A stretch of DNA of 64,000 nucleotides from Natronolimnobius baerhuensis (GTDB lineage: Archaea > Halobacteriota > Halobacteria > Halobacteriales > Natrialbaceae). Where the stretch lies: NCBI RefSeq assembly GCF_002177135.1, contig NZ_MWPH01000003.1, positions 496,001 through 560,000 of the forward strand, written 5' to 3'. This document shows, piece after piece, positions 2,216-8,337 of the stretch (position 1 is its first letter; every line of letters starts with the position of its first letter). Both the position numbers and the translations under genes were made by a program. Below the pieces are notes generated by a model. It was not told the DNA's origin and made no database searches. It saw nothing but the letters and a program-made list of their open reading frames with translations.

Positions 2216-3256
2216 CTACTCGAGGCGTGCGCCGGTGCCCGCCCGCTCGAGGCCGGCGAGGTCGATTCGGCCGTCTGGCATGGGGACGCCCGCGTAGGGG
2301 TCCTCGGCGAGCAACAGCGGGCCGTCGAGGTCGGCGTAGTCGAGCAGCGGTGCGAGGTGACAGGCAGCGGCAATCGAGGCGTGGGATTCGGTCATACAGC
2401 CACACATCACCTCGAGGCCGTGTGCGCGGGCGGTGTGGATCATCCGCATCGCTTCGCGGAGGCTGCCGCATTTCATCAGTTTCAGGTTCACGATGTCACA
2501 CCGGTCTGCAACCTGTGGAACGTCGGCGAGTGTGAGACAGGACTCGTCGGCGGCAACTGGGAGCGCGGCACGCTCGTAGACGAACTGCAATCCGTCCGGA
2601 TTTGCTGCGGGAACCGGCTGTTCGATGAACTCGAGGTCGAACGCGGCGAGGCGCTCGATCCGCGTAACAGCCTCGCGGGGCGTCCAGGCTTCGTTCGCAT
2701 CGGCATAGAGGCGAACATCGGGTGCAACGTCTCGGATCGCCTCGATGATCTCGATGTCGCGGTCGGTGCCGAGTTTAATCTTCAGCGTCCCGTGGCCGCG
2801 CTCGAGTGCGTCGGCGGTTTTCTCGCGCATCGTCTCGAGGTCGTCGAGACCGATGGTGTAGGACGTCTCGACCGTGTTCGTCGGGTCGAGCCCCCAGTAG
2901 CGATACAGTGGAACCTCGAGGCGCTTTGCGACGAGGTCGTGTAACGCAATACTGACGGCCACGCGGGCGGCGGGGTTTCGGTGCACCGTCTCGCGCATGC
3001 GGCGCTCGATGCGCTCGAGGTGGTGTGGATCGCCCACGTCTTCGACGACTGCCAGCAGGTCGGGCAGGACTGCCTCGACCGTCGCCGCCGTCTCGCCGTA
3101 GTGTGACGACGGTGTCGCAGCGCCGATCCCGACGTGGCCCTCGTCGTCTTCGATGTGGACCGTCACGGCGTCCGTCTCGGTCTGGGTTCCGCGGGCGATG
3201 CCGAAGGCGTACTCGAGTGCGAGCGTTCGTCGCTCGAAATCGGTAGATGCGATCAT
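2216..3256 (-). CDS. dgcA: N-acetyl-D-glutamate racemase / enolase-superfamily epimerase DgcA
   Basis: This 346-residue enolase-superfamily protein has an N-terminal capping domain (1-120) and a TIM barrel with the full catalytic set. The set comprises the KxK pair K159/K161 (LKIKLG), metal ligands D186 (DANEAW), E212 (EQP) and D237 (ADES), a lysine in NLKLMKCGS, and the CMTES and DLDGP loops. By fold alone it would be called a dipeptide (L-Ala-D/L-Glu) epimerase. However, the gene directly upstream, three bases away, encodes a DUF1611 protein. The DUF1611-plus-epimerase pair is known as DgcN-DgcA, a D-glutamate catabolic route in which DgcN acetylates D-glutamate and DgcA racemises the N-acetyl product. 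The function is inferred from that pairing. Confidence 0.85.
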   Translation of the reverse strand: MIASTDFERRTLALEYAFGIARGTQTETDAVTVHIEDDEGHVGIGAATPSSHYGETAATVEAVLPDLLAVVEDVGDPHHLERIERRMRETVHRNPAARVAVSIALHDLVAKRLEVPLYRYWGLDPTNTVETSYTIGLDDLETMREKTADALERGHGTLKIKLGTDRDIEIIEAIRDVAPDVRLYADANEAWTPREAVTRIERLAAFDLEFIEQPVPAANPDGLQFVYERAALPVAADESCLTLADVPQVADRCDIVNLKLMKCGSLREAMRMIHTARAHGLEVMCGCMTESHASIAAACHLAPLLDYADLDGPLLLAEDPYAGVPMPDGRIDLAGLERAGTGARLE

Positions 3257-3259
3257 CGG

Positions 3260-4291
3260 TCAGTCCTCGAGCAGTGCCTCCAATACGGTGTCCGTCTCGA
3301 AGCGGATCACATCTGTTGCGGGGACGCCGAGTTCGTCGGCGTAGGTCTCGACGGCTTCCGCAGCGGCAGCCTCGTCGTCGCTGTCTAATCCGGATGTATT
3401 GAGCGCGCCGGCGACGATGTCAGCGTCGCTGACGGGGCCGGCCAGTCCCTCGTAGAGGTCGACGTAGGTCGAGAGCGAGGGCAGTTCGAACGACTCGTAG
3501 CCGTGGATGGCCTCCTGGCCGGCGTTGTGGCACAACACCAGTTTGTCGGCCATCGACCCGTGGAGAATGCCACACGTGACGGCGGAGTAGGCGGGATGGA
3601 CGATGCTTCCCTGGCCCTCGACGAAGAGATAGTCGTGCTCGTCGCCGATCTCCATGATCATCTCCTCGACCGCACCGGCGGCGAAGTCGGCAACGACGCG
3701 GTCGATTGGATTCCCCCAGCCCTCGATCATGATGCCCGTCTGGCCGGTCGGGATCACGGCGGCGTCGTAGCCGGCCTCGCGGGCGTCGCGAGCGAGTTCC
3801 ATCGTCGTCGTCATCTTCCCGACCGAGCAGTCCGTCCCGACGGTGAGGATGATTTCGGCGTCGACATCGCCGGCGACACCGTCTGCGACGCCGAGGTCGT
3901 CACTGGGCTTGCGAACATCCCGTAGCTCACAGTCGTTCGCCGCGGCGAGGCGGGCGAACTCCTCGTCGTCGCTGAGAAAGTAGTGCAGTCCAGATACCAC
4001 GTCACAGCCGTCCTCGAGGGCGGTGCGAACGTCGCCTCGCCACGTCTCGTCGAACTCGCCGCCGATGGGCGAGATGCCGATCAACAGCGCATCGACGTCG
4101 TCGCTCTCGAGATCGTCCATGCCGGCGACGATGGGTGCGTCCTGCACGTCCGGAACAAATTCGGAAACCCGTGCGCCGGCGTTGTCGCGGTCGAGAACGG
4201 CAACGATGTCGTCGGTGCCGTAGCGAAGCACGCCAAGTGCCGTCTTCGCTCGCTCGGGAAACTTCTCGTGGGCGAGAATCGCAATCTGCAT
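3260..4291 (-). CDS. dgcN: D-glutamate N-acetyltransferase DgcN (DUF1611 family)
   Basis: This 343-residue protein has the DUF1611 architecture. An N-terminal Rossmann-like domain (1-130) contains LLIGISPIGGEF, and a C-terminal P-loop NTPase-like domain contains the glycine-rich loop GTDCSVGKM (152-160) and the conserved VIPTGQTGIMIEG and VEGQGSIVHPAYS segments. Members were annotated only by DUF until linked to D-glutamate use together with the epimerase encoded next to them. Its start follows a TATA-like box by about 27 bases, so the mRNA is probably leaderless, and dgcA follows in the same operon after 3 bases. No dedicated regulator gene is adjacent. Confidence 0.85.
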   Translation of the reverse strand: MQIAILAHEKFPERAKTALGVLRYGTDDIVAVLDRDNAGARVSEFVPDVQDAPIVAGMDDLESDDVDALLIGISPIGGEFDETWRGDVRTALEDGCDVVSGLHYFLSDDEEFARLAAANDCELRDVRKPSDDLGVADGVAGDVDAEIILTVGTDCSVGKMTTTMELARDAREAGYDAAVIPTGQTGIMIEGWGNPIDRVVADFAAGAVEEMIMEIGDEHDYLFVEGQGSIVHPAYSAVTCGILHGSMADKLVLCHNAGQEAIHGYESFELPSLSTYVDLYEGLAGPVSDADIVAGALNTSGLDSDDEAAAAEAVETYADELGVPATDVIRFETDTVLEALLED

Positions 4292-4312: not shown

Positions 4313-4323
4313 CCACTTAAATG
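4313..4323 (-). promoter_or_regulatory. TATA-like box of the dgcN-dgcA operon
   Basis: On the minus strand this reads CATTTAAGTGG, centred about 27 bases before ATG 4291. That spacing fits a haloarchaeal promoter making a leaderless mRNA. Confidence 0.45.
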
Positions 4324-4357: not shown

Positions 4358-5380
4358 CTATAGGACGTGTAACTCCGTGGTCCAGAACGAGTGGACGGCG
4401 TCCTCGAGTGCCGGTTTCGGGTCGCCGGTCGCGTCGACGGCGGCAGTCGCTGCGGGCTCGAGGTCGATTTCGTCGGCGAGCGTGTCGACGACGCCGCGCT
4501 GACCGACGAGAAAGAGGCGCTCAATGCCGGAGTTCTCGTCATCGCCACCGCCAGCACCAGCTCCGTTCGCCACGGTGCTCGTTTGGCGTCCACCTCCATC
4601 GGCCTGCTCGAGTCGGCTACCGATGTGTTTCGCGAGCGCCTCGTCACAGCGATCCAGATGGGTGTCGATCTGCTCGTTGCGAATTCGTTCGAAGCGGGCC
4701 TGCGAGAAGCCGCCTTTCGAGTGGCTCCCCTTGACGTCGCTCTCGAAGCCGTGGTACTCGAGGCGCTCGTTGCCGTGGTAGATGCCGAGCGCGAACAGGT
4801 CGGTTCGGACCAGCGCAATCGCGTAGCGCCCGGTCGGCAGGAACCACTCGCGCTCGAGTCTGAATCGGTCGTGCCAGCCCGAGTCGTGCGCCGACGGCAG
4901 GACGGGCGGCTCGAGTGCGACCGAAACGAGGCCGGCATCGTCGAGACAGCAGACACACGGGGACGCATCCTCGAGCAGTGCGGTCCGCTCACTGAGGACA
5001 TCCTCCACTCCGAGGTCCTCGAGTGTCTCGCGGTCGTCGTCTCCACCCAAAATGGCCGTCAGCGCCCCCTCGGAGTCGGTTCGAACCGATTGCAGTCGCT
5101 CGAGAACGGTCTCGAGGCGGCCGCCGCGCAGTTGTTCGCGGCGACGAACCTCGATGCCGGCATCGTCGGATTCGACGCGTTCGAGTTCGCCCTCGAGTTG
5201 GGCGATTCGGTCCTCGAGCCGATTGACCTCCGCTTCGGCCTCTTGGCGGGCTGTCACCGCATCGGATCGACGATCCGCCTCAGCCTCGTAGCGACGCTCC
5301 ATGTGCTCGAGTTCGTCCTCGAGATCGGCGATGCGGTCTTTGAGTTCGGCGCGTCCCAGCACCTCGTCGAGGTCGAACAT
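4358..5380 (-). CDS. Vms1/ANKZF1-family peptidyl-tRNA hydrolase
   Basis: This 340-residue protein begins with a long charged coiled coil (about 1-90). It then has the VLRF1/eRF1-like domain with the diagnostic GSHSKGGFSQARFERIR segment (218-234), whose Gln (Q227) corresponds to the catalytic glutamine of yeast Vms1. In eukaryotes these proteins release nascent chains from tRNA on stalled 60S subunits (ribosome quality control). Archaeal relatives are assumed to act similarly. A CVCC cluster sits at 142-145 and a Gly/Asp-rich low-complexity linker at about 256-285. It ends 66 bases from the dgcN start on the same strand but has its own promoter space. Confidence 0.85.
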   Translation of the reverse strand: MFDLDEVLGRAELKDRIADLEDELEHMERRYEAEADRRSDAVTARQEAEAEVNRLEDRIAQLEGELERVESDDAGIEVRRREQLRGGRLETVLERLQSVRTDSEGALTAILGGDDDRETLEDLGVEDVLSERTALLEDASPCVCCLDDAGLVSVALEPPVLPSAHDSGWHDRFRLEREWFLPTGRYAIALVRTDLFALGIYHGNERLEYHGFESDVKGSHSKGGFSQARFERIRNEQIDTHLDRCDEALAKHIGSRLEQADGGGRQTSTVANGAGAGGGDDENSGIERLFLVGQRGVVDTLADEIDLEPAATAAVDATGDPKPALEDAVHSFWTTELHVL

Positions 5381-7677: not shown

Positions 7678-8337
7678 ATGGACTCCGCCGCGTTGCTGGA
7701 TTTGTTGGGAAACGAAAATCGAAGACGCATCCTTCGGTTACTCGCCCGCAAACCCTGTTACGTCACGGAAATCTCGGACTACCTCGGTGTGAGTCCCAAA
7801 GCAGTCATCGAACACCTTCGAAAACTCGAGGAAGCGGGCTTAATCGAAAGCCGCGTCGATGACCAGCGCCGGAAGTACTTTCATATCGCCCGGAACGTCC
7901 GCCTCGAGGTGAACGTCTCGCCGTATGGCTTTGCGAGCAAGAGCGCCTATCCGGCCAGTAACAGTTTCGACATCACGTCCTGTCGGCACCTCTCGCTTGA
8001 TATTTCTTGGGACGAAGCCGACGAACTTGATGACCTCCTGCGAGCACTCGAGGATCTGGAGCGACTCGAGAACGAACTCTCACTCGCCCAGCGGTGGGTC
8101 CAGGGTAGACTCTGTGACGTGCTCGATGACATTTCGGAGACGGTCGGTACCAATCCCGAGAGCCGAATTTATGCCGACCTGTTGGCCTGTATTCGCACAG
8201 AGCCGCGTGCCGTCGGCGAACTCAGTCGAGAAATCGATGCCCCGCGTGAGGTCGTCGCAGAACTGCTCGAGGTGATGGCTGATGAGGGAGTCGTCCAGCG
8301 GACCGAACGCGGCTGGGAACTGACGGCGACGGTCTGA
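7678..8337 (+). CDS. ArsR-like winged-helix transcriptional regulator
   Basis: This 219-residue protein has a winged HTH at 1-60 (LLDLLGNENRRRILRLLARKPCYVTEISDYLGVSPKAVIEHLRKLEEAGLI, in ArsR/HTH_20 style). A central region of about 60 residues contains two Cys/His positions (SFDITSCRHLSLD), then comes a helical segment. A second winged-helix-like domain follows at about 160-219 (LLACIRTEPRAVGELSREIDAPREVVAELLEVMADEGVV). It begins 86 bases after the secreted-protein gene on the same strand and may control it, but no operator is evident. The ligand is unknown. Confidence 0.85.
   Translation: MDSAALLDLLGNENRRRILRLLARKPCYVTEISDYLGVSPKAVIEHLRKLEEAGLIESRVDDQRRKYFHIARNVRLEVNVSPYGFASKSAYPASNSFDITSCRHLSLDISWDEADELDDLLRALEDLERLENELSLAQRWVQGRLCDVLDDISETVGTNPESRIYADLLACIRTEPRAVGELSREIDAPREVVAELLEVMADEGVVQRTERGWELTATV

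Follow-up and report, generated by a model that had tools for sequence, protein, structure and literature searches.

A DUF1611-racemase gene pair conserved in Halobacteria that probably works like DgcN-DgcA

The DgcN-DgcA pathway of D-glutamate catabolism was reportedly described by Yu et al. in 2023 (ISME J 17:537-548) for marine Proteobacteria and halophilic archaea. In Pseudomonadota a dgcN gene followed by the racemase gene is the rule, and LysR or transporter genes are neighbors in several loci. A first-pass annotation of the DNA studied here, a stretch of 64,000 nucleotides that we call the window, had assigned a complete dgcN-dgcA pair and had linked the published system to halophilic archaea. 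This link is sound as far as the title of the publication goes, which names halophilic archaea (cited in PMC12363236). The DgcN family is DUF1611, because one of the three solved relatives of the DUF1611 protein of the window (PDB 2obn, 7xrj and 2g0t) is titled "N-acetyltransferase DgcN-25328" (7xrj) and matches it with 174 bits.

The gene pair, its promoter and its neighbors

The pair is located on the minus strand of contig C3, in a haloarchaeal genome of 3.9 Mb. The DUF1611 gene (dgcN-like, 3260-4291, 343 aa) comes first and is followed after a gap of 3 bp (3257-3259) by an enolase-superfamily racemase/epimerase gene (dgcA-like, 2216-3256, 346 aa), with the same strand and order in relatives. 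Both are intact open reading frames, as had been annotated, and the matches to Pfam DUF1611_N/C and MR_MLE_N/C are far above the Pfam cut-offs. A gap of this size would imply co-translation or a single operon. To call the system complete was an overstatement, because the locus has no gene for the deacetylase step, for which the rest of the genome offers only generic M20 candidates. The DUF1611 protein consists of a Rossmann-like N-domain and a P-loop C-domain with the motifs G152TDCSVGKM, T182GQTGI, D202FAAG and E225GQGS. In DUF1611 alignments GTDCSVGK, TGQTG, DFxxG and EGQGS are kept and largely invariant, and both domains and the P-loop core are present in the window protein. Its predicted structure is poor (pLDDT 60) and served for the fold match alone; the prediction for the racemase reached a pLDDT of 80.

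Upstream of dgcN, a TATA box (TTTAAG, 4316-4321, minus strand) lies at -30 to -25 relative to the ATG, a position that is conserved in relatives. The core TTAAG occurs at -29/-28 in 23 of 41 distinct relatives, compared to 0.27 expected after shuffling, and the earlier proposal of a leaderless promoter is therefore well supported, so that dgcN probably has such a promoter. Leaderless mRNAs are usual in haloarchaea. As also noted before, no dedicated regulator adjoins the pair: none was found among the neighboring open reading frames scanned with Pfam, and the nearest one is a winged-helix gene at 7678-8337, whereas an adjoining LysR gene is often present in bacterial dgcN-dgcA loci.

Immediately upstream of dgcN, in the same orientation, lies a gene (4358-5380) for a VLRF1-type release-factor-like protein, which is found at this place in 7 of the 13 relatives compared. 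On the other side, positions 1068-2141 encode a His/Asp/Gly-rich, Tat-signal-like protein without any Pfam match, and a P-loop kinase-like gene (AAA_33, 563-1078) is frameshifted near codon 88. The frames starting at 563 and 769 match the N-terminal and the C-terminal half, respectively, of an intact relative of 163 aa from the same genus, which may reflect either a sequencing error or a pseudogene.

Conservation and co-divergence in Halobacteria

The distribution was analyzed in the window's own genome and in 60 relatives (61 genomes in total), and we refer to DUF1611 proteins and racemases of the window's type as class I. A class I DUF1611 gene is present in 52 of the 61 genomes, 51 of these also contain the class I racemase, side by side by coordinates, and none of the 61 has the racemase without the DUF1611 gene. 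The class I pair is thus near-core in Halobacteria, and because it is conserved in almost all sampled members chance can be excluded. In a sample of the phylum, DUF1611 was found in 38 of the 43 genomes listed for the same order, compared to two genomes outside of it. The flanking genes are conserved in part of the sampled loci only, which indicates that the pair and not the region is kept. Furthermore, the pairwise divergences of the two proteins correlate over 65 loci with a Mantel r of 0.79 (permutation maximum 0.29). Some haloarchaea do have a DUF1611 copy without adjoining racemase, as would be expected if the two genes were neighbors by history alone and shared no pathway, but with the linkage kept in 51 of 52 genomes, no solitary racemase and correlated divergence we regard this explanation as highly improbable.

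Class I-like DUF1611 copies without an adjoining class I racemase are located on a plasmid of Halostella pelagica (L218) and at the loci L277, L278 and L279. In a genome that does not belong to the window's order, a DUF1611 gene (3730-4785 of L280) is followed after 9 bp by a non-racemase gene starting MKTLGIDIGGTKID. Some haloarchaea contain another type of DUF1611-epimerase pair, which we call class II and which is often found on plasmids (L214-L217, L238, L239, L172-L178). Several class II pairs adjoin genes for NlpC/P60, D-aminoacylase, D-Ala-D-Ala carboxypeptidase (dacB) or dipeptide ABC transporters, and at two class II loci (L217, L238) the DUF1611 gene has no adjoining epimerase. On plasmids of Phaeobacter, Vibrio and Ruegeria (L233, L234, L235) the DUF1611 gene overlaps a gene of the PLP-dependent alanine/ornithine racemase family by 4 bp.

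These pairings suggest that DUF1611 has become associated with racemases more than once. It is tempting to generalize that DUF1611 acyltransferases serve racemases of at least three enolase-superfamily branches (bacterial DgcA, class I and class II) as well as PLP racemases, and that the class I pair is an independently recruited core version of an acylate-then-racemize module whose real substrate may not be D-glutamate; we consider this broader idea tentative and somewhat doubtful.

Family models, active site and ancestry of the racemase

Both proteins stay far below the NCBIfam equivalog cut-offs, which are 480 bits for DgcN (NF041892) and 400 bits for DgcA (NF042940). The DUF1611 protein scores 245 bits and the racemase 255 bits, in comparison to 481-551 and 414-506 bits, respectively, for bacterial members. 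None of the sampled haloarchaea passes the DgcN cut-off and the DgcA cut-off is passed by 0 of the 61 genomes. Because these defining features are lacking, the pair was not filed as an equivalog member. The best NCBIfam model for the window racemase is DgcA, 61 bits ahead of the E. coli L-Ala-D/L-Glu epimerase, whereas a dipeptide-epimerase model is preferred for the haloarchaeal class II racemase. We rejected the top score as proof of DgcA, because the library is without a model for epimerases of the B. thetaiotaomicron type.

The catalytic set KxK/DxN/E/D/K of the racemase is complete, in agreement with the first-pass annotation (K159/K161, D186-x-N188, E212, D237 and K262), and it does not vary among 66 haloarchaeal orthologues or among 111 bacterial sequences of the DgcA type, apart from one bacterial row that is gapped at K262. 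R22 and Y53, which may contact the substrate, are invariant as well (66/66 in class I, 111/111 in bacterial DgcA-type sequences) and also occur in 4gfi and the E. coli enzyme, but they are absent from class II and from the epimerases of Bacillus, Enterococcus, Methylococcus and B. thetaiotaomicron. Compared to the active site of bacterial DgcA, the catalytic set, R22 and Y53 are kept, but three positions with almost no variation in bacterial DgcA differ: R/K at position 25 is replaced by Q/T/A in most class I racemases, D261 by M and G290 by E. With R22/Y53 as in DgcA and these three residues changed, the pocket is a mosaic as judged from the alignments. The altered positions would fit a module that acylates and racemizes a D-amino acid other than D-Glu (such as D-Asp or a further acidic or polar one), or that uses another acyl group, and so would the breadth of DUF1611, which is elsewhere paired with PLP alanine/ornithine-type racemases and other genes. 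We nevertheless assume that such a module is quite unlikely, as the catalytic residues and R22/Y53 are common to the Glu-handling DgcA and the E. coli L-Ala-D/L-Glu epimerase.

The D309xD311 motif (DxD) is also present in the window racemase. It is universal and occurs in all bacterial DgcA-type sequences, and was dropped as a marker of dipeptide epimerases; the combination of KxK/DxN/E/D/K and DxD, by which dipeptide epimerases are recognized, is likewise shared by the window racemase and all bacterial DgcA-type sequences and does not discriminate.

The closest characterized homologue of the window racemase is the L-Ala-D/L-Glu dipeptide epimerase of B. thetaiotaomicron (41% identity, 217-222 bits; 168-172 bits for bacterial DgcA). 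This enzyme is also the best match of the predicted fold, and dipeptide epimerases in general match. A true dipeptide epimerase as closest characterized homologue had been named as refuting the D-glutamate assignment. Taken literally this is what we found, but it does not discriminate, because bacterial DgcA itself nests with the E. coli dipeptide epimerase and is inseparable from it in the tree; gammaproteobacterial DgcA and the E. coli enzyme share about 50% identity. A group of class I and DgcA that excludes the E. coli epimerase was rejected in the AU test (p 1.3e-39). Groupings of class I with DgcA and the E. coli epimerase (p 0.43) or with the B. thetaiotaomicron epimerase (p 0.21) were not rejected, and since both stand ancestry does not decide the substrate. 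The class II racemase lies on another, strongly supported branch, that of the Bacillus/Enterococcus epimerases.

The racemase could also be a genuine epimerase of dipeptides (L-Ala-D/L-Glu or similar) for the salvage of peptides from bacterial peptidoglycan, with the DUF1611 protein acting on the same peptides or on released D-Glu. Besides the B. thetaiotaomicron enzyme as best homologue and fold match, E290 and KLMK, which are common to the epimerases of B. thetaiotaomicron, Bacillus, Enterococcus and Methylococcus, point in this direction, as do the muropeptide-related genes and dipeptide transporters beside class II pairs. However, these class II racemases belong to the other branch, R22/Y53 and the best family model are those of DgcA, and neither a peptidase nor a peptide transporter was found among the scanned neighboring open reading frames or the conserved neighbors of the pair. 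In addition, a family-by-family assessment of the window's genome revealed no NlpC/P60 muropeptide peptidase, and we therefore judge peptide salvage unlikely. The same assessment revealed no Asp/Glu racemase and eight genes of the M20 family, which might include a deacetylase. Taken together, this gene content speaks indirectly for free D-Glu, rather than muropeptides, as the source.

Proposed pathway and comparison with known systems

We assume, with a probability of roughly 0.6, that the pair represents a haloarchaeal branch of the DgcN-DgcA pathway and works in the same way. This is based on the order of DUF1611 and racemase genes as in annotated bacterial dgcN-dgcA, on the tight linkage across Halobacteria with correlated divergence, on DgcA as best model together with the invariant R22/Y53 of bacterial DgcA, and on a genome without Asp/Glu racemase or NlpC/P60 in which the M20 genes are a possible supply of the deacetylase. 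In this respect the first-pass assignment stands for the DUF1611 family, the gene order and the linkage, while scores of about half of the NCBIfam cut-offs for both proteins speak against it. The changed positions 25, 261 and 290 and the dipeptide epimerase as nearest characterized racemase and best fold also count against a DgcN-DgcA-like function, as do the rejection of an origin shared with DgcA to the exclusion of the E. coli epimerase (AU p about 1e-39) and the conserved DxD, which binds the dipeptide ammonium group in characterized epimerases but is kept in bacterial DgcA too.

We propose the following scheme, in which substrate, acetyl donor, deacetylase and physiological role are inferred. 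Both genes would be expressed from the conserved TATA promoter as one leaderless message. The DUF1611 protein would move the acetyl group from acetyl-CoA onto the amino group of D-glutamate, and this acyl group would lower the pKa of the alpha-proton and make the substrate fit the racemase. The latter would then interconvert N-acetyl-D-glutamate and N-acetyl-L-glutamate, with Mg2+ held by D186, E212 and D237 and with K161 and K262 as acid/base lysines, before an unlinked deacetylase would convert N-acetyl-L-glutamate to L-glutamate. If the pair uses D-Glu, almost every haloarchaeon can recycle an amino acid of the bacterial cell wall although these organisms make no peptidoglycan, and at least in this genome the recycling would take place without a glutamate racemase. 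Public pipelines label the relatives "dipeptide epimerase" and "DUF1611", and the curated models cannot decide between names; the naming question concerns a pair carried by most members of a large archaeal class.

Among the systems compared, the haloarchaeal class II pairs, for example those on plasmids of Natrinema caseinilyticum and Halorussus halophilus, have the same families and order as the window pair, but share only about 44% (DUF1611) and 37% (racemase) identity with it and have muropeptide-type neighbors. Their racemases are without R22/Y53 and group with Bacillus/Enterococcus-type epimerases. The B. thetaiotaomicron L-Ala-D/L-Glu epimerase (PDB 3iji, 3ijl, 3ijq) is the closest solved homologue and has the catalytic set, DLDG, KLMK and E290 in common with the window racemase, but differs in R22 and Y53. 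In contrast, the E. coli epimerase (PDB 1jpd) and 4gfi from Agrobacterium, which share a large branch of the tree with bacterial DgcA, agree in R22, Y53, the catalytic set and DLDG, but contain KLDK instead of KLMK and Cys or Gly instead of Glu at position 290. The identity to DgcN and DgcA of Rhodobacterales is only 32-40%, and the window pair is distinguished from bacterial dgcN-dgcA by its probable leaderless promoter, the missing LysR neighbor and the three changed DgcA positions. Nevertheless, both have the DUF1611 gene directly followed by an enolase-superfamily racemase gene on the same strand, and bacterial DgcA, like the window racemase, combines the complete catalytic residues with R22 and Y53.
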